From positions 1 through 21,370 of the IMG/VR virus record IMGVR_UViG_3300033552_000062: a DNA stretch of 21,370 bases; one strand, written 5' to 3'. Each line of letters starts with the position of its first letter. Position 1 is the stretch's first letter. The notes beneath the pieces are model-generated. The model saw only the letters and a program-made list of their open reading frames with translations. It made no database searches and had not been told where the DNA came from. Of this stretch, positions 8,906 through 14,560 are shown in pieces. The position numbers and the translations under genes are program-made. This stretch comes from a virus.

Positions 8906-9186
8906 ATCGCGGCCTTCTGCGCCTTGCGGCCGGCCTCAAAGCCGATGGCATAGCCCTTCTTCATGCCAGCCTCAAAGCCAGCATGGCCTGCGCTGTGCTG
9001 CGCGTCATCCAGCGCGGCATCCAGCTGCATCGTCGTGATCACATGGCAGCCCCCGCCGTCCTGGCAGGCGCGGACCTCTGTATCCGTCAGGTGCACAGAT
9101 TTGCCCATCACTTGCAACGCCATGGCTGGCGCATTCAGGTTCAGCAGGATCAGGGTGTACGCAAGCAGCAAGGCGATGAACTTCAT
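8902..9186 (-). CDS. Exported small protein, first gene of the leftward operon
   Basis: The product has 94 residues. A signal peptide is clear: Lys2, a hydrophobic core IALLLAYTLILLNL and a signal peptidase I-type site after AMA (about residue 23). The mature part has two Cys in a short loop (ACQDGGGCHV) and a helical C-terminus with repeated Gly/Ala/aromatic/Lys units (GFEAGMKKGYAIGFEAGRKA). The start is supported by a GGAG ribosome-binding site. It is the first protein gene after a long untranslated leader carrying two tRNA genes. Family not recognised. A periplasmic role during infection or lysis is possible. Confidence 0.72.
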   Translation of the reverse strand: MKFIALLLAYTLILLNLNAPAMALQVMGKSVHLTDTEVRACQDGGGCHVITTMQLDAALDDAQHSAGHAGFEAGMKKGYAIGFEAGRKAQKAAI

Positions 9187-9491
9187 GGCGTTCTCCGGTG
9201 TAGTTCCAGGCCTTCCACCTGGTCGGGCTATGCACGCACCCGTGGGGTGGCGACATCACCTTGGGGAGTCGCGTACTCCCACCAAGCCCGATGCCTTTTG
9301 GGCAGAGCGGGAACTCAAGACAGACTGAGGGCTCCGTCGCTTCGCAACGACAGCTCCCTCGATACCCAGTCATCGCATGGGTGATGGGCGAAAACGTCTA
9401 CGGCGTTGCGGTTTTGTCTACAAAATGGTGTCGGACAGAGGAGGCCTCTACTTCTTGACGAGTGGTCCGAGTGGCTCATGTCCGACGTAAC
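9187..9491 (-). other. Structured non-coding leader between tRNA-Met and first leftward gene
   Basis: No frame here looks like protein. Two strong inverted repeats stand out: 9264-9269 with 9275-9280 (GGGAGT/ACTCCC, five-base loop), continued by CTTG at 9260-9263 with CAAG at 9283-9286, and an imperfect long hairpin at 9327-9360 whose ends pair GAGGG with CCCTC. A TTTTG/CAAAA hairpin lies near 9412-9425. None is followed by a T-run in the leftward direction, so these do not look like intrinsic terminators. Confidence 0.4.
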
Positions 9492-9570
9492 TGGTTGCGA
9501 ACGGCTGGATTTGAACCAGCGGCCATCGCCGTATGAGGGCGCTGCTCTGACCGGGCTGAGCTACGTCGCG
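9492..9570 (-). tRNA. tRNA with anticodon CAU (Met, or Ile2), irregular acceptor
   Basis: The minus strand gives a near-complete cloverleaf: D-stem GCTC/GAGC, anticodon loop CTCATAC with anticodon CAT on a four-pair stem (GCGCC/GGCGA, last pair mismatched), and a perfect T-arm GCTGG-TTCAAAT-CCAGC, ending in an encoded CCA. The acceptor pairs GCGACG with CGT-TCGC only if one T is bulged, and there is one extra base before CCA. The D-loop is one base longer than in E. coli elongator tRNA-Met. It could be Met or, if lysidine-modified, an Ile tRNA for AUA. It may be functional with a distorted acceptor or partly decayed. Confidence 0.75.
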
Positions 9571-9653: not shown

Positions 9654-10036
9654 GAAATAGGCCCCAGTGTGGTAACGCTACCTGGGTCGCAGCGGTTTGT
9701 GATTGGCTCCGGGCCTTGCACCCGGATGGCTTGTCAGGCTTCGCCCTGCTTGTTGGCTCACTGGCCTAGTGCTGGATTACTCCGCAATGCTTTTTTATTC
9801 GCATTCACCAAAACGGCTGCACCCTTTTTGCTTCACAGGCTTGCTGGGCGAGCCAGGTGCCTCTGCATATCCCCGGCAGGGGCTCCGTACTGCCGCACGG
9901 AGAAGGATGCATTCGTTTTGAGAAGGCTGCGCCCATCAATGTGGGCCGCTTTCGTTGCGCACGGTTGCGCTTGTTCTTGTGTTGTCACTCGCGGTTGCGA
10001 TTGGCCCTGTGTGACGTGATTCTTTCGGAGCCATCT
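9654..10036 (-). other. Hairpin-rich non-coding stretch, head of the leftward transcript
   Basis: There is no convincing gene on either strand. Inverted repeats follow each other closely: CCCAG/CTGGG (9663-9686), CCGGG/CCCGG (9709-9725), CACT/AGTG (near 9760-9772), CCCC/GGGG (9871-9882), CTCCGT/ACGGAG (9883-9902), GCCCA/TGGGC (9932-9946) and GCGCA/TGCGC (9957-9970). A six-T run sits at 9791-9796 on the plus strand without a good hairpin before it. The stretch could be decayed tRNA genes or a structured leader RNA. I found no third cloverleaf. Confidence 0.4.
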
Positions 10037-10070: not shown

Positions 10071-10173
10071 AACATTTTGTTGTCTGTGGCACTTTTACTT
10101 TTAGGTGACGTAAATAAAAGACGAAGTATAAGGGTTTACCCTGATAAAAGAATTCCCAACACTTGATTGTGTG

Positions 10174-10404: not shown

Positions 10405-10592
10405 CGCGCACCATCACCTTCACCGACGCAGAGATCACCGCATTGCGGCAGTCTGTAATGAGTCGTGAAGACGCCCTTCAAGACCGCCTAGCGGAGGTGC
10501 GCTCACGCGATTCCCATGACGAAGAATGGGCCAAGCAGATAGCGGCATCTATCAACACCCTGAATGGTTTGTTCGGCAAGTTGGCCGCCTAG
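10401..10592 (+). CDS. Small helical hypothetical protein
   Basis: The product has 63 residues, starting at the ATG that overlaps the previous stop (ATGA). A beta-like MTRTITFTDAE lead is followed by two helices: ITALRQSVMSREDALQDRL and HDEEWAKQIAASINTLNGLFGKL. The pattern of a helix with spaced charged residues, then a second amphipathic helix, is seen in many small phage early proteins of unknown role. No Cys or membrane segment is present. It is co-translated with the preceding gene and followed by a strong intercistronic hairpin. Confidence 0.72.
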   Translation: MTRTITFTDAEITALRQSVMSREDALQDRLAEVRSRDSHDEEWAKQIAASINTLNGLFGKLAA

Positions 10593-10601
10593 CCCACCCT
10601 C

Positions 10602-10646
10602 ATGCGCTACAGGTTAGCGCATCGGAGTGATTTAGTAACCAACCAA
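10602..10646 (+). repeat. Intercistronic hairpin element B, copy 1
   Basis: An eight-pair perfect hairpin (ATGCGCTA/TAGCGCAT at 10602-10609 and 10615-10622, loop CAGGT) is followed by CGGAGTGATT and AACCAACCAAGGAG. The part after the hairpin resembles that of copy 2 (GTGTGATTAACCAACAGGAG), and all three copies place a hairpin and a GTGAT-type box between a stop codon and the next ribosome-binding site. There is no T-run, so it is probably not a plain terminator. Confidence 0.5.
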
Positions 10647-11250: not shown

Positions 11251-11472
11251 ATGGAAGTTATGCGTTCAGCCATTCATACAAACGACCGCGCCTCAGAGGG
11301 TGTAGTCAACGGCCGATGGGTTACCGAAGCCCGTGCCGGTCTTCACGGGCCAGCCGGGACCCTGGTGTGCGATCCGGCACCGGGTGAGCCGGACGATCTT
11401 ACATTCACCGCGCCCAACGGCAAGCGGTATTGGGATGTGCCCAGTGGAGTCCAGTGGACGCCTCGCGCTTGA
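11251..11472 (+). CDS. Small hypothetical protein
   Basis: The product has 73 residues from an ATG with AAGGA upstream. It is Gly/Pro/Trp-rich and beta-like (VVNGRWVTEARAGLHG, LTFTAPNGKRYWDVPSGVQW), with one Cys. The C-terminal part reads like a short strand-loop-strand unit. I know of no family. It stands alone between a 25-base gap and hairpin element B copy 2, whose shared 13-mer begins at its last codons. Confidence 0.6.
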   Translation: MEVMRSAIHTNDRASEGVVNGRWVTEARAGLHGPAGTLVCDPAPGEPDDLTFTAPNGKRYWDVPSGVQWTPRA

Positions 11473-11521
11473 TCCCAGCGGCCTGGGCCCACTCAGGTCA
11501 GTGTGATTAACCAACAGGAGA
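11467..11521 (+). repeat. Intercistronic hairpin element B, copy 2
   Basis: The element begins with GCTTGATCCCAGC, which contains the stop codon of the gene before it and is repeated exactly at copy 3. A hairpin follows, CCTGGG (11482-11487) with CTCAGG (11492-11497), one G-T pair and a CCCA loop, then GTGTGATTAACCAACAGGAG, which provides the next ribosome-binding site. Confidence 0.5.
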
Positions 11522-11526
11522 AGCAA

Positions 11527-11919
11527 ATGACAGACACAGAAATTTTCAACTGGGCACTTTCGGAGGACTCCACAGAAGACGACTTTCACCAGCACTTTGA
11601 AACATTTGGGCGTTGGAACTGGTGTGATGTTGCAGAAGAGTCCCGGCGCATACGTAGCGTGATTGCTGTCGAGCCCTTGCATACCAACTACGCCATTGAT
11701 GCCGTTCTCAGCGCAACCGCTGCCCAGGCGAGCTTCGGTGCTTACGCCGCAATGGCTGCTGCATTGGGCGTAGATTCAGATGACCTGAGAATTACCGTGG
11801 CACAGTGGTCAGAGAGGCAGAACAATCCACCGCCTCCAGTAACCGCAGAGCGGCTCATGGAGATGGTCAAGGAAACCAGGCAGGAGGATTCCGACCGCAA
11901 CGCAACCAGGCAGGCTTGA
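11527..11919 (+). CDS. Acidic hypothetical protein
   Basis: The product has 130 residues. The ATG at 11527 is preferred over an in-frame GTG eight codons upstream because CAGGAG sits six bases before it and would be translated otherwise. The first 50 residues are acidic and aromatic (WALSEDSTEDDFHQHFETFGRWNWCDVAEESRRIR). The middle is Ala-rich and helical (VLSATAAQASFGAYAAMAAALGV), and a Pro-rich turn precedes a charged helix at the end. No metal or nucleotide motif is visible. Family not recognised. It is flanked on both sides by copies of hairpin element B. Confidence 0.68.
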   Translation: MTDTEIFNWALSEDSTEDDFHQHFETFGRWNWCDVAEESRRIRSVIAVEPLHTNYAIDAVLSATAAQASFGAYAAMAAALGVDSDDLRITVAQWSERQNNPPPPVTAERLMEMVKETRQEDSDRNATRQA

Positions 11920-11956
11920 TCCCAGCCTGAAGCCCTCCTGGGCTTTGGAGTGTGAT
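11914..11956 (+). repeat. Intercistronic hairpin element B, copy 3
   Basis: GCTTGATCCCAGC, the same 13-mer as copy 2 and again carrying the stop codon of the upstream gene, is followed by a perfect six-pair hairpin (AAGCCC 11930-11935 with GGGCTT 11940-11945, loop TCCT) and by GGAGTGTGAT. The stem sequence differs completely from copy 2 while the arrangement is kept. Confidence 0.5.
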
Positions 11957-11980
11957 CCCGCACTACATCAAGGAAATATC

Positions 11981-12421: not shown

Positions 12422-12471
12422 TTGCATTGACTTTTTCTTTGTGCTACTATTTGTTGTCTGCTAAACATTTA
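12422..12471 (+). promoter_or_regulatory. Rightward promoter P2 with downstream box
   Basis: TTGCAT (12422-12427) and TACTAT (12445-12450) are 17 bases apart, with TGC directly before the -10. TTTGTTG follows the -10, then AAACATTTA in the expected leader. The start near 12457 leaves about 28 untranslated bases. Of the four rightward copies, this has one of the two recognisable -35 boxes. Confidence 0.65.
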
Positions 12472-12484
12472 CAAGGAGTTTCAG

Positions 12485-12769
12485 ATGTCTACATACCAAG
12501 GTCACCACCCTGACGGTGGCGGCGTTCAGCTGCACAGTGCCGGGGGTCTGTACCCCTACGTGGTCTATGCCCAGGGCGCTGACGTCCTGACCTACGGGGT
12601 CATTGTCCCGGGCCAGACTGGCTACCTGGTTGGCAGCTATGACGAGGCGGTTGACCACGCCTGGGCCCTGAAGAACGGCACCGTCCGCCCGGTCGGCATA
12701 GCCCTCACGACCAAGCAGCTGCAGGCCTGGGATGAAAAGTCCCTGCGAGCCGGTGGGTGGGTGCTGTGA
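12485..12769 (+). CDS. Hypothetical protein, first gene after P2
   Basis: The product has 94 residues, ATG preceded by AAGGAG. It is Gly/Tyr/Val-rich and beta-like (GGVQLHSAGGLYPYVVYAQ, DVLTYGVIVPGQTGYLVG), then helical (YDEAVDHAWALKNG) and ends in LQAWDEKSLRAGGWVL. It has no Cys. A small all-beta or alpha-beta fold is likely. No family recognised. It heads the operon that starts at P2 and overlaps the next start by GTGA. Confidence 0.7.
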   Translation: MSTYQGHHPDGGGVQLHSAGGLYPYVVYAQGADVLTYGVIVPGQTGYLVGSYDEAVDHAWALKNGTVRPVGIALTTKQLQAWDEKSLRAGGWVL

Positions 12770-12969
12770 ACGCACGCCAAATGTTGAGGGCGTTTTCTCT
12801 GGATACGCCTTGCCCTATGCGCCGGCTCACGGATGCTCAGTTGTTGTCAATCGTTGAGACAGACGGCGGCGCCGACATCAAAACATGGCACGACGACCCA
12901 GTCCCGCCAGCGATGGTTGAAATGAAACGCCGGTCTGCCCTCGCCAAAGCCACCAAGGCCGCACCATGA
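12766..12969 (+). CDS. Small hypothetical protein
   Basis: The product has 67 residues from the GTG at 12766, chosen over a GTG three codons upstream because it makes the usual four-base overlap (GTGA) with the preceding stop. An N-terminal helix (ARQMLRAFSL) is followed by RRLTDAQLLSIVETDGG, a DPVPPAMVEMKRR segment and a Lys/Ala tail. Translation is probably coupled to both neighbours, since its own stop overlaps the next ATG. No motif recognised. Confidence 0.6.
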   Translation: MNARQMLRAFSLDTPCPMRRLTDAQLLSIVETDGGADIKTWHDDPVPPAMVEMKRRSALAKATKAAP

Positions 12970-13238
12970 TCGCCGACATTCTCGGCTACCTGCGAGCCCA
13001 GGCCGAGTGGGAAAGCAGGCTGCCGCCAGAAGACGGCCCGAGCGATTGCGCCGCGTGCAACGGCAAAGGCCAGGCCCCGGTGCCGGGTGACCCTGAAGCT
13101 GAGTACGTGGAGTGCGATGCCTGCGATGGCCTCGGCCAGGTCACTGCCGACGGCGACCCGTTTGACCCCGACAAGAAAGAGCGCGAAGAGGCGGAATACG
13201 CCGACCACAAACGCGACCAGCGCGACACCGAAGCCTGA
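12966..13238 (+). CDS. Second small protein with DnaJ-like zinc motifs
   Basis: The product has 90 residues. CAACNGKG (28-35) and CDACDGLGQV (50-59) form a CxxCxGxG pair like that in DnaJ and in the gene at 10657, but closer together, so the zinc loop is shorter. An N-terminal helix (MIADILGYLRAQAEWESRL) precedes it. The C-terminus is extremely charged (DPDKKEREEAEYADHKRDQRD). The two zinc proteins of this window share little outside the motif, which suggests separate acquisition or strong divergence. A role in binding protein or nucleic acid is plausible but not shown. ATGA overlap upstream, and an intrinsic terminator follows. Confidence 0.78.
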   Translation: MIADILGYLRAQAEWESRLPPEDGPSDCAACNGKGQAPVPGDPEAEYVECDACDGLGQVTADGDPFDPDKKEREEAEYADHKRDQRDTEA

Positions 13239-13251
13239 ATTCACCGTGAAG

Positions 13252-13269
13252 ACCGGCGTGCCGGTTTTT
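13252..13269 (+). terminator. Intrinsic terminator
   Basis: ACCGG and CCGGT pair around a four-base loop (CGTG), immediately followed by five Ts. It sits 14 bases after a stop codon and would end or weaken transcripts from P2. The stem is only five pairs, so read-through is likely, and the next gene has no promoter of its own that I can see. Confidence 0.55.
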
Positions 13270-13309
13270 GCAGTGCAGTCATCCCGACTTCACCTACAAA
13301 AGGATTTTT

Positions 13310-13663
13310 ATGGAACAAGTATTTTGGCTGATGTATTTGGCAGACCTGTCCGGCAGTGTTGCCGCGGTCGGTATCGGCGCCGTAATGGCGGCGATTGTGT
13401 CGATGGTGTTTATGACCATTATGGCGGTGTACGACGATGTTGAGACTGGTGGCTACGCCAGAGCCTTTCGCGTCCTGCGCTGGCTGTTGATTCCTATCAC
13501 CATCGCCGTGCTGCTGCCAAGCAAGCAGACCATCCAGCTTCTGGCGGTTGTGTCGGCGTCTGACGCTGTCGCCTCTACCCAGCTCGGGCAGAAAGGCGTC
13601 GAGGCCATCAACGCTGTCCTGGATCGCGTTATCAAGGAGTCCAAAAAAGAGGCCGGCAAATAG
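13310..13663 (+). CDS. Conserved phage membrane protein
   Basis: The product has 117 residues from the ATG at 13310, preceded by AAAAGGA. Membrane helices lie at about 15-40 and 55-70, with an Asp/Glu/Arg-rich loop between them. A motif PSKQTIQLLAVVSASDA follows the second helix, then a helical charged tail ending in Lys residues. This two-helix, PSK(Q/K)T, charged-tail layout matches a family of phage inner-membrane proteins I recall from several Gram-negative phages, whose function is unknown. It might be a holin, but its place in the early region argues for another role such as membrane modification or superinfection exclusion (speculative). Confidence 0.75.
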   Translation: MEQVFWLMYLADLSGSVAAVGIGAVMAAIVSMVFMTIMAVYDDVETGGYARAFRVLRWLLIPITIAVLLPSKQTIQLLAVVSASDAVASTQLGQKGVEAINAVLDRVIKESKKEAGK

Positions 13664-13679
13664 CCGTCACCTGCAAGAG

Positions 13680-13719
13680 CTCCAGCGGGAGCCTGTCGCA
13701 GCAGGCTCTCACGGGAATT
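13680..13719 (+). repeat. Covarying hairpin element A, copy 1
   Basis: CTCCAGCGG, then GAGCCTG (13689-13695) paired with CAGGCTC (13702-13708), then TCACGGGAATT. The flanks are near identical to copy 2 about 350 bases downstream. Two stem pairs differ between the copies in a compensated way. It lies between a stop codon and the next ribosome-binding site (AAAGGA). Confidence 0.65.
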
Positions 13720-13736
13720 TTACAAAGGAAAAACAA

Positions 13737-14030
13737 ATGCACAGAATAGAAATGAATGAAGTGGATCAGCACATTGCTCACGTATGCGACCCAGAGCGCA
13801 CAGACAACAGGTGGGTCTTGGTTTATCGCAACCCGCACACCGGCAACAGCTGGCATGCAATGAGGCTGCTCCCGTCCGACAACGCGCGCGCACGCGAAGC
13901 CCTGACCGCCCAGGGCTGTGAGGTCGTGATCTCAAACTTGGAGAACGGCGAGTGGAACACATGGCAGTGGCTGCATCGCTACCGCAAGGACGCGCCCATG
14001 GCAGAGTTGTCTGCGCAGGTTTACCACTGA
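13737..14030 (+). CDS. Hypothetical protein between two copies of hairpin A
   Basis: The product has 97 residues, ATG at 13737 with AAAGGA upstream. The sequence starts with a short charged part (MHRIEMNEVDQHIAHVCDPE), then a beta-like VLVYRNPHTGNSWHAMRLLP, a helix (DNARAREALTAQGCEV) and a Trp/His/Arg segment (NTWQWLHRYRKD). It has two Cys. I do not know the family. The gene is bracketed by element A on both sides, which may help set its expression relative to its neighbours. Confidence 0.66.
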   Translation: MHRIEMNEVDQHIAHVCDPERTDNRWVLVYRNPHTGNSWHAMRLLPSDNARAREALTAQGCEVVISNLENGEWNTWQWLHRYRKDAPMAELSAQVYH

Positions 14031-14033
14031 TAG

Positions 14034-14075
14034 TTCCAGCGGGAGCCGAGTGACAGTCGGCTCTCACGGGAATTC
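14034..14075 (+). repeat. Covarying hairpin element A, copy 2
   Basis: GTTCCAGCGG, then GAGCCGA (14043-14049) paired with TCGGCTC (14057-14063), then TCACGGGAATT. Seven perfect pairs close a seven-base loop. Compared with copy 1 the T-A pair is G-C here and the G-C pair is A-T, so pairing is kept while sequence changes. Confidence 0.65.
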
Positions 14076-14104
14076 ACCCGACAACCCAACCGCACGGAGA
14101 TTTT

Positions 14105-14560
14105 ATCATCGGCTACACACACTACTTCAAACAGCAGCAGCAGCCAACGCCGGAGCAATGGCAGGCCATCACGGGAGGCTTCACCGTGCTGTGCGCCGCA
14201 GCGATAGCGGTCGGCCAGCCTTTCCCGATCCAGCGCGAGGACGACAACGCCTCAGAGCCCGAAATTGGCGACGACCGTATCGCCTTCAACGGCGCCGGCG
14301 ATGACGGTCACGAAACCATGCTTCTGGAGCGCGAGGGCGATAGGTTTCAGTTTTGCAAGACCGCCCGCAAGCCTTACGACCGCGCCGTCATGGCGCTGCT
14401 GATTCTGGCCGACCAATGCGCGCCTGGCTGCTGGGAGATCGCCTCAGACGGCGACCCGGAGGACTGGCAGCCGACCCTGGACTGGATGAATGGCCTGCAA
14501 ATTCCAGGGTTGGAGTTGCCGGTCGGGGTGGCGCGAGAGTCCGACGAGGATCAGTTATGA
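14105..14560 (+). CDS. Conserved phage protein with a probable non-standard start
   Basis: The product is about 151 residues. The frame is open from 14105. Its first standard start (GTG at 14186) would cut off a segment reading GYTHYFKQQQQPTPEQWQAI, which resembles the N-terminus of a widespread phage family I recall (M..GYTHYW). The rest also fits: IAFNGAGDDGHETMLLE, FCKTARKPYD, ASDGDPEDW. An ACGGAG ribosome-binding site lies five to eight bases before two ATC codons (14105, 14108), and no ATG, GTG or TTG exists in frame there. So either ATC is used, or a sequence error or mutation removed the start. Role unknown. Overlaps the next gene by ATGA. Confidence 0.68.
   Translation: MIGYTHYFKQQQQPTPEQWQAITGGFTVLCAAAIAVGQPFPIQREDDNASEPEIGDDRIAFNGAGDDGHETMLLEREGDRFQFCKTARKPYDRAVMALLILADQCAPGCWEIASDGDPEDWQPTLDWMNGLQIPGLELPVGVARESDEDQL

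Follow-up and report, generated by a model that had tools for sequence, protein, structure and literature searches.

Covarying hairpins anchored at stop codons in uncultured phages as candidate marks of cistron ends

Introduction

In phages, many short genes share messages with one another, and except in a handful of model phages it is poorly understood how their individual levels are set. In a 21.4-kb virus fragment from IMG/VR, analyzed here over its whole length (the window), two similar hairpins lie between consecutive small genes. This locus raises the question of whether the hairpins are a selected RNA structure and, if so, what such a structure does between cistrons.

Results

Structure and context of the two hairpins

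Copy 1 occupied positions 13674–13722 and copy 2 positions 14031–14075, both on the plus strand. The repeats that they contain were CCAGCGGGAGCCTGTCGCAGCAGGCTCTCACGGGAATT at 13682–13719 and CCAGCGGGAGCCGAGTGACAGTCGGCTCTCACGGGAATT at 14036–14074, and the chance expectation for a match of this length was 0.00 in dinucleotide shuffles. The apical stem was GAGCCTG/CAGGCTC in one copy and GAGCCGA/TCGGCTC in the other; two adjacent stem pairs, 6 and 7, were altered on both sides (T-A to G-C and G-C to A-T) with retention of pairing, and the loops were 6 and 7 nt long. This agreed with an earlier note on this DNA, which had described two repeated hairpins with compensatory changes. The near-identical flanks that the note had placed around them were indeed alike but were not plain context, as they paired with each other to form the lower stem of the hairpin. 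In copy 2, a 6-bp lower stem (AGUUCC/GGAAUU) was followed by A.G, G-C, and C.A, and then by a 9-bp upper stem closed by the 7-nt loop GTGACAG. Copy 1, with an upper stem of 10 bp and the conserved flanks as its lower stem, folded similarly with one extra mismatch. The folding z-scores were −3.83 for copy 1 and −4.72 for copy 2, and none of 200 shuffles was equally stable.

One strand of the window encodes the terminase and portal proteins, and the opposite strand carries dense small genes and a DnaB-type helicase gene. Copy 1 lay in the gap at 13664–13736 between an ORF at 13310–13663 (phrog_3878, function unknown) and an ORF at 13737–14030 without known relatives, and copy 2 began directly 3' of the TGA stop codon at 14028–14030. 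An SD sequence, CGGAG, followed copy 2, and the next ORF (14108–14560), which had phage homologues, apparently started with ATC at 14108, a non-standard codon; these three ORFs are on the plus strand. Thus both copies were intercistronic between co-directional genes, and each consisted of a lower stem, a small internal loop, and an upper stem, with a stop codon 5' and the next SD 3' of the hairpin. The earlier statement that both precede a ribosome-binding site therefore held, except that the gene after copy 2 lacks a standard start codon. In the region 14096–14112, tblastn homologues of the product (IGYTHYF...) aligned from the residue encoded by ATC 14108, and one annotated CDS begins there; the ATC seems to be a rare start codon or a sequence variant, or else the true start is GTG at 14186. 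There was no long T-run 3' of either copy, copy 1 being followed by AATTTT, and neither was among the predictions of a terminator scan.

Further hairpins in the same gene blocks

The two copies had been presented as a pair, but they were not isolated. Folding of the intercistronic gaps yielded hairpins of one shared plan at 11470–11509 and 11917–11958 (plus strand), each starting with the TGA stop codon of the ORF upstream (11251–11472 and 11527–11919, respectively), and a close counterpart at 9177 in G001/L174, a relative with conserved synteny (73% for the terminase and about 60% for the helicase). The hairpin at 11470 folded to the consensus, and two near-copies of that at 11917 were present in another contig (G021/L223). 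A third hairpin, at 13236–13281 (plus strand), was a CACCG...CAGTG variant that started with the TGA stop codon of the ORF at 12966–13238 (z-score, −3.55). The same blocks also held a possible member of similar plan and weak match at 10590–10636 (plus strand; z-score, −2.77), located after a TAG stop codon.

The blocks are set by another repeat. The sequence GTGCTACTATTTGTTG at 12441–12456 (plus strand) recurred at 10173, 14943, and 18067, giving 4 matches with up to 3 mismatches against 0.09 expected, and at 12441 it was preceded by TTGACT at promoter spacing. These copies are probably phage promoters with an extended −10 element. They divided the small genes into blocks, the first two of which contained the hairpins. 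A tRNA-Met (CAT) gene was located at 9480–9569 on the minus strand, near the point where two gene blocks diverge.

A hairpin family in uncultured phages

The shared plan, which defines type I, was (U)GAUC-n-CA-GC-[variable 8–12 bp stem]-AG-UG-n-GAUC(A), where n is a mismatch, and in each hairpin the stem was imperfect and, counting mismatches, about 18 bp long. Three covariance models were built, R1 from 4 sequences, R2 from 9, and R3 from 32. R1 retrieved new intercistronic copies in relatives, and in 0.97 Mb of background contigs that had only the helicase in common it gave nothing below E = 0.07 (best, 0.077). With R2 and R3 the best background value was E = 0.015–0.016, at a contig (L007) whose hit itself looks genuine by context. 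With these two models, family members were detected in about 26 contigs of IMG/VR, among which some were near-identical; no contig had more than 4 copies. In the window, R3 scored the seed sequences at 11470 and 11917 with 48.3 and 55 bits, respectively, and the hairpin at 13236, which was not a seed, with 25.9 bits (E = 3.6e-5). The latter and the copy in L130 were detected by models built without them. The hairpin at 10590 reached 14 bits with R2 (E = 0.18) and 10 bits with R3 (E = 1.1).

As a separate test, we searched for the ends only, TGATCCCAGC...AGTGTGATC, leaving the stem letters free. In IMG/VR, 15 of the 17 stretches matching this pattern had stems of 8–12 bp that differed in sequence (14 unbroken and 1 bulged). 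A slightly stricter pattern found five stretches in 84,980 cellular species genomes, none with a stem; these five still scored with R3 because the pattern had selected the conserved ends. A second pair of ends, CGGCTGCAGC...AGTGCAACC, detected this kind of element in L217 and L226 and also in L241 and L248, each time three bases 3' of a stop codon. Across contigs, the same plan recurred with different stems beside different genes. The homologous copies with retained pairing for which the earlier note had proposed a covariance-model search were thus found for the wider family, but for the exact sequence of copies 1 and 2 IMG/VR gave chance matches only.

In Rfam 15, the window matched only a tRNA, and six family-bearing contigs had no match at the gathering threshold. 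Five isolates with a related terminase or helicase contained no element at E values up to 1, and the consensus element gave only partial matches to isolates, at E of about 4. R3 found none in 369 bacterial genomes, a weak negative since 17 candidates were scored per genome, and no description of such an element was found in the open-licence literature. The family is therefore absent from Rfam and recurs in uncultured phages with its shape kept while its letters change.

Other hairpins were seen near or beside family members. The syntenic relative (G001/L174) carried three more intercistronic hairpins, which were of a second, longer type; they were located at 9659, 10219, and 11279 of L174 (2567, 3128, and 4188 of L019), their stems covaried, and a small hairpin (CTGGC/GCCAG) and AGGAG lay 3' of them. 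At L207 1014–1045 and L213 2296–2335, a second hairpin with a T-rich tail came immediately after the family hairpin, the one in L207 being terminator-like; therefore, the element and a terminator can adjoin. In the portal region of several contigs (L146, 7670–7711; L104, 12503; L180, minus strand, 9924), a stop codon was directly followed by a related-looking hairpin, TGATCTCAGC...GGGACAGTGTGAG, so that elements may extend beyond the early genes.

Covariation of the stem

In the alignment A4, which comprised 28 distinct rows, 13 of the 15 pairs had changed on both sides. Base pairing was found in 95.5% of the cells; shuffles reached 68.4 ± 1.6%, and sliding the partners gave no more than 39%. 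The covariation score was reached by no shuffle. The alignment had been fitted to the structure, many of the contigs are related, and the E-values are rough. G.U cells numbered 41 on the coding strand against 5 A.C cells, which would be G.U on the opposite strand (p = 4e-8). This excess on the coding strand indicated that RNA, and not DNA, is under selection. The upper stem varied, and a core below it was nearly invariant, with C7 in 27, A8 in 27, G9 in 26, and C10 in 28 of the 28 rows on the 5' side, and A52 in 25, G53 in 26, U54 in 27, and G55 in 28 on the 3' side. The hairpin structure is almost certainly real and selected. The selected RNA structure suggested for this locus from its letters thus has strong evidence in the type I family; for copies 1 and 2 themselves, the evidence consists of two adjacent compensatory pairs and a low folding energy.

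Anchoring at stop codons

In all 39 distinct copies, the hairpin was located at or just 3' of the stop codon of an open frame of at least 45 codons, with an offset of 0 in 26 and of 1–20 nt downstream in the rest. Part of this set came from a pattern beginning with TGATC, which does not force the TGA to be in frame. In 35 of the 39, an SD and a start codon followed 8–52 nt further on. Random positions in the same contigs satisfied the stop placement in 16% and the combined stop and SD/start placement in 3%. No copy had TTTT within 12 nt 3' of the hairpin (0/39), which upheld the earlier view that the structure is not a simple terminator. The phase from the stop codon to the next start was 10/9/10, without preference. 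Because the distance to the stop codon was nearly fixed and that to the start was variable, the hairpin seems to belong to the end of the upstream cistron. Comparison among the contigs, at the level of sequence, showed the existence of type I, selection on its coding-strand RNA, its stop anchoring, and its presence in several copies per genome.

Relationship of copies 1 and 2 to type I

Even with filters off, R2 and R3 gave no match to copies 1 and 2; the hairpins at 11470, 11917, and 13236 did match. A score based on the flanks ranked the two copies 298th and 3016th among 20,743 hairpins, which did not place them in the family. Exact and loose DNA patterns of the two copies returned nothing or chance matches in IMG/VR; one search had 31 matches, none of them a convincing intercistronic hairpin. 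BLAST of the region against isolate phages gave nothing useful. Copies 1 and 2 have in common with type I the gene blocks, the position, the plan, and CCAGC, and the copy 2 loop GTGACAG recurred in type I members (the L213 group, L130, and L207). A similar element (TCCAGC...CCGGGAATTG) was located in L210 3' of a homologue of the window gene at 12485–12769, the same place in which L206 and L187 have type I hairpins. From their place, plan, and common loop, the two copies probably represent a divergent subtype of the family (subtype II) with the same job.

Discussion

We read these hairpins, at a probability of about 0.5, as cis-acting RNA structures in polycistronic phage mRNA that are anchored at cistron ends and would mark those ends for processing or protection. 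The stem begins at the stop codon, and the lower stem often includes the stop codon itself; CAGC opposite AGUG is the conserved core, below an upper stem in which letters are free and pairing is kept. A host or phage protein, or an RNase, may read this core, and the hairpin would label the 3' ends of cistrons as sites of processing or protection. The upstream message would then end in a protected 3' hairpin, and the downstream cistron would keep an SD of its own. The role as such, processing or protection, we hold at somewhat under even chances; it is consistent with the stop anchoring, the multiplicity, the pairing at the RNA level, and the absence of T-runs.

The conservation of the core argues for a specific reader. 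A core so nearly invariant exceeds the needs of a generic double-strand RNase and counts against the processing reading. A search of 21 family contigs revealed no RNase III gene, and a host enzyme would therefore be required. Tentatively, the family may form a post-transcriptional regulon, in which one RNA-binding protein or nuclease, of the host or the phage, reads the CAGC/AGUG core on the stop codons of many cistrons and thereby labels where cistrons end throughout a broad group of uncultured phages.

Translation control, which the earlier note had named beside processing as a likely role, is the chief alternative, and we consider it rather unlikely. The hairpin would act on the terminating ribosome, either bringing the stop codon to the next SD for coupling or reinitiation or insulating the next cistron. 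In most copies the stem opens with the stop codon, and its upper part starts about 10 nt later, which by geometry is near the edge of a ribosome stopped there. An SD and a start codon lie within 8–52 nt in 35 of the 39 copies, and the SD touches the hairpin base in L226 and L229. However, in 13 of the 39 the stop codon precedes the hairpin by 1–20 nt, the distance to the start is not fixed, no hairpin was seen covering an SD, and the stop-to-start phase is random.

Improbable, in our view, is transcription control, by which the hairpin in the nascent RNA would act on RNA polymerase through pausing, partial termination, or a put- or nut-like antitermination site. The hairpins do recur along promoter-bounded gene blocks, and the L207 element is followed by a terminator-like hairpin with a T-run, but no T-run follows any of the 39 copies themselves, which occupy gaps between consecutive genes, away from promoters, and are tied to stop codons, a signal that RNA polymerase does not read. 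Still less probable is a DNA-level signal, that is, a recombination or mobile-cassette boundary (attC-, REP-, or PeSL-like) on small gene modules. Such a boundary would account for the same plan beside different genes in different contigs, but the 41 G.U against 5 A.C cells point to RNA, and in the sense direction a stop codon precedes every one of the 39 copies, an arrangement that a DNA site does not need; a DNA palindrome was rejected on these two grounds. Lastly, stable GC-rich hairpins directly after UGA would also suit a plain intrinsic terminator or a stop-codon readthrough (selenocysteine, SECIS) signal, both of which were rejected as having next to no probability, the former for the want of a T-run in 39 of 39 copies and the latter because the phases are random (10/9/10), TAA and TAG are also used, and in 11 of 29 the frame past the stop codon closes ahead of the next start.

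An element that is anchored at stop codons, covaries, and has a fixed core offers a testable handle on phage gene levels, and the covariance model finds more of them. Should a specific reader exist, it would add a new layer to the control of phage genes.

Integron attC sites carry R boxes, RYYYAAC and GTTRRRY, at their ends; by eye, the aligned family ends read UGAUC and GAUCA. Several known systems resemble the family in part. In Cluster K mycobacteriophages, the extended start-associated sequences (ESAS) recur in the non-structural region as inverted repeats whose spacer varies, and a role in gene expression is suspected; they accompany start codons and a conserved 13-bp sequence, and their arms conform to a sequence consensus (PMC3203893). 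The family is like them in its repeated inverted repeats with variable spacer in a non-structural gene region, whereas its anchor is the stop codon and its upper stem varies with compensation. The 13-bp SAS of these phages, GGGATAGGAGCCC, had 0 matches with up to 2 mismatches. In T4-type phages, PeSL cassettes are stem-loops found in the gaps between small early genes, and their neighbours change. The family likewise consists of intergenic stem-loops among small genes with changing neighbours; however, in many copies only 8–24 nt separate the hairpin from the start, which leaves no room for a promoter, and the promoter-like repeats are in other gaps.

In phage T7, RNase III processing hairpins lie between the early genes; they are imperfect, of roughly 20 bp, several per genome, and without a T-run. 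Unlike these, the present hairpins start at a stop codon, have a near-invariant CAGC/AGUG core, and occur in contigs of which 21 showed no RNase III gene; they are candidate RNase III sites. Like these, they are imperfect and intercistronic, occur several times per genome, and lack a T-run, and their stem of about 18 bp agrees with the intercistronic imperfect double-stranded RNA of about 20 bp that is expected of an RNase III site.
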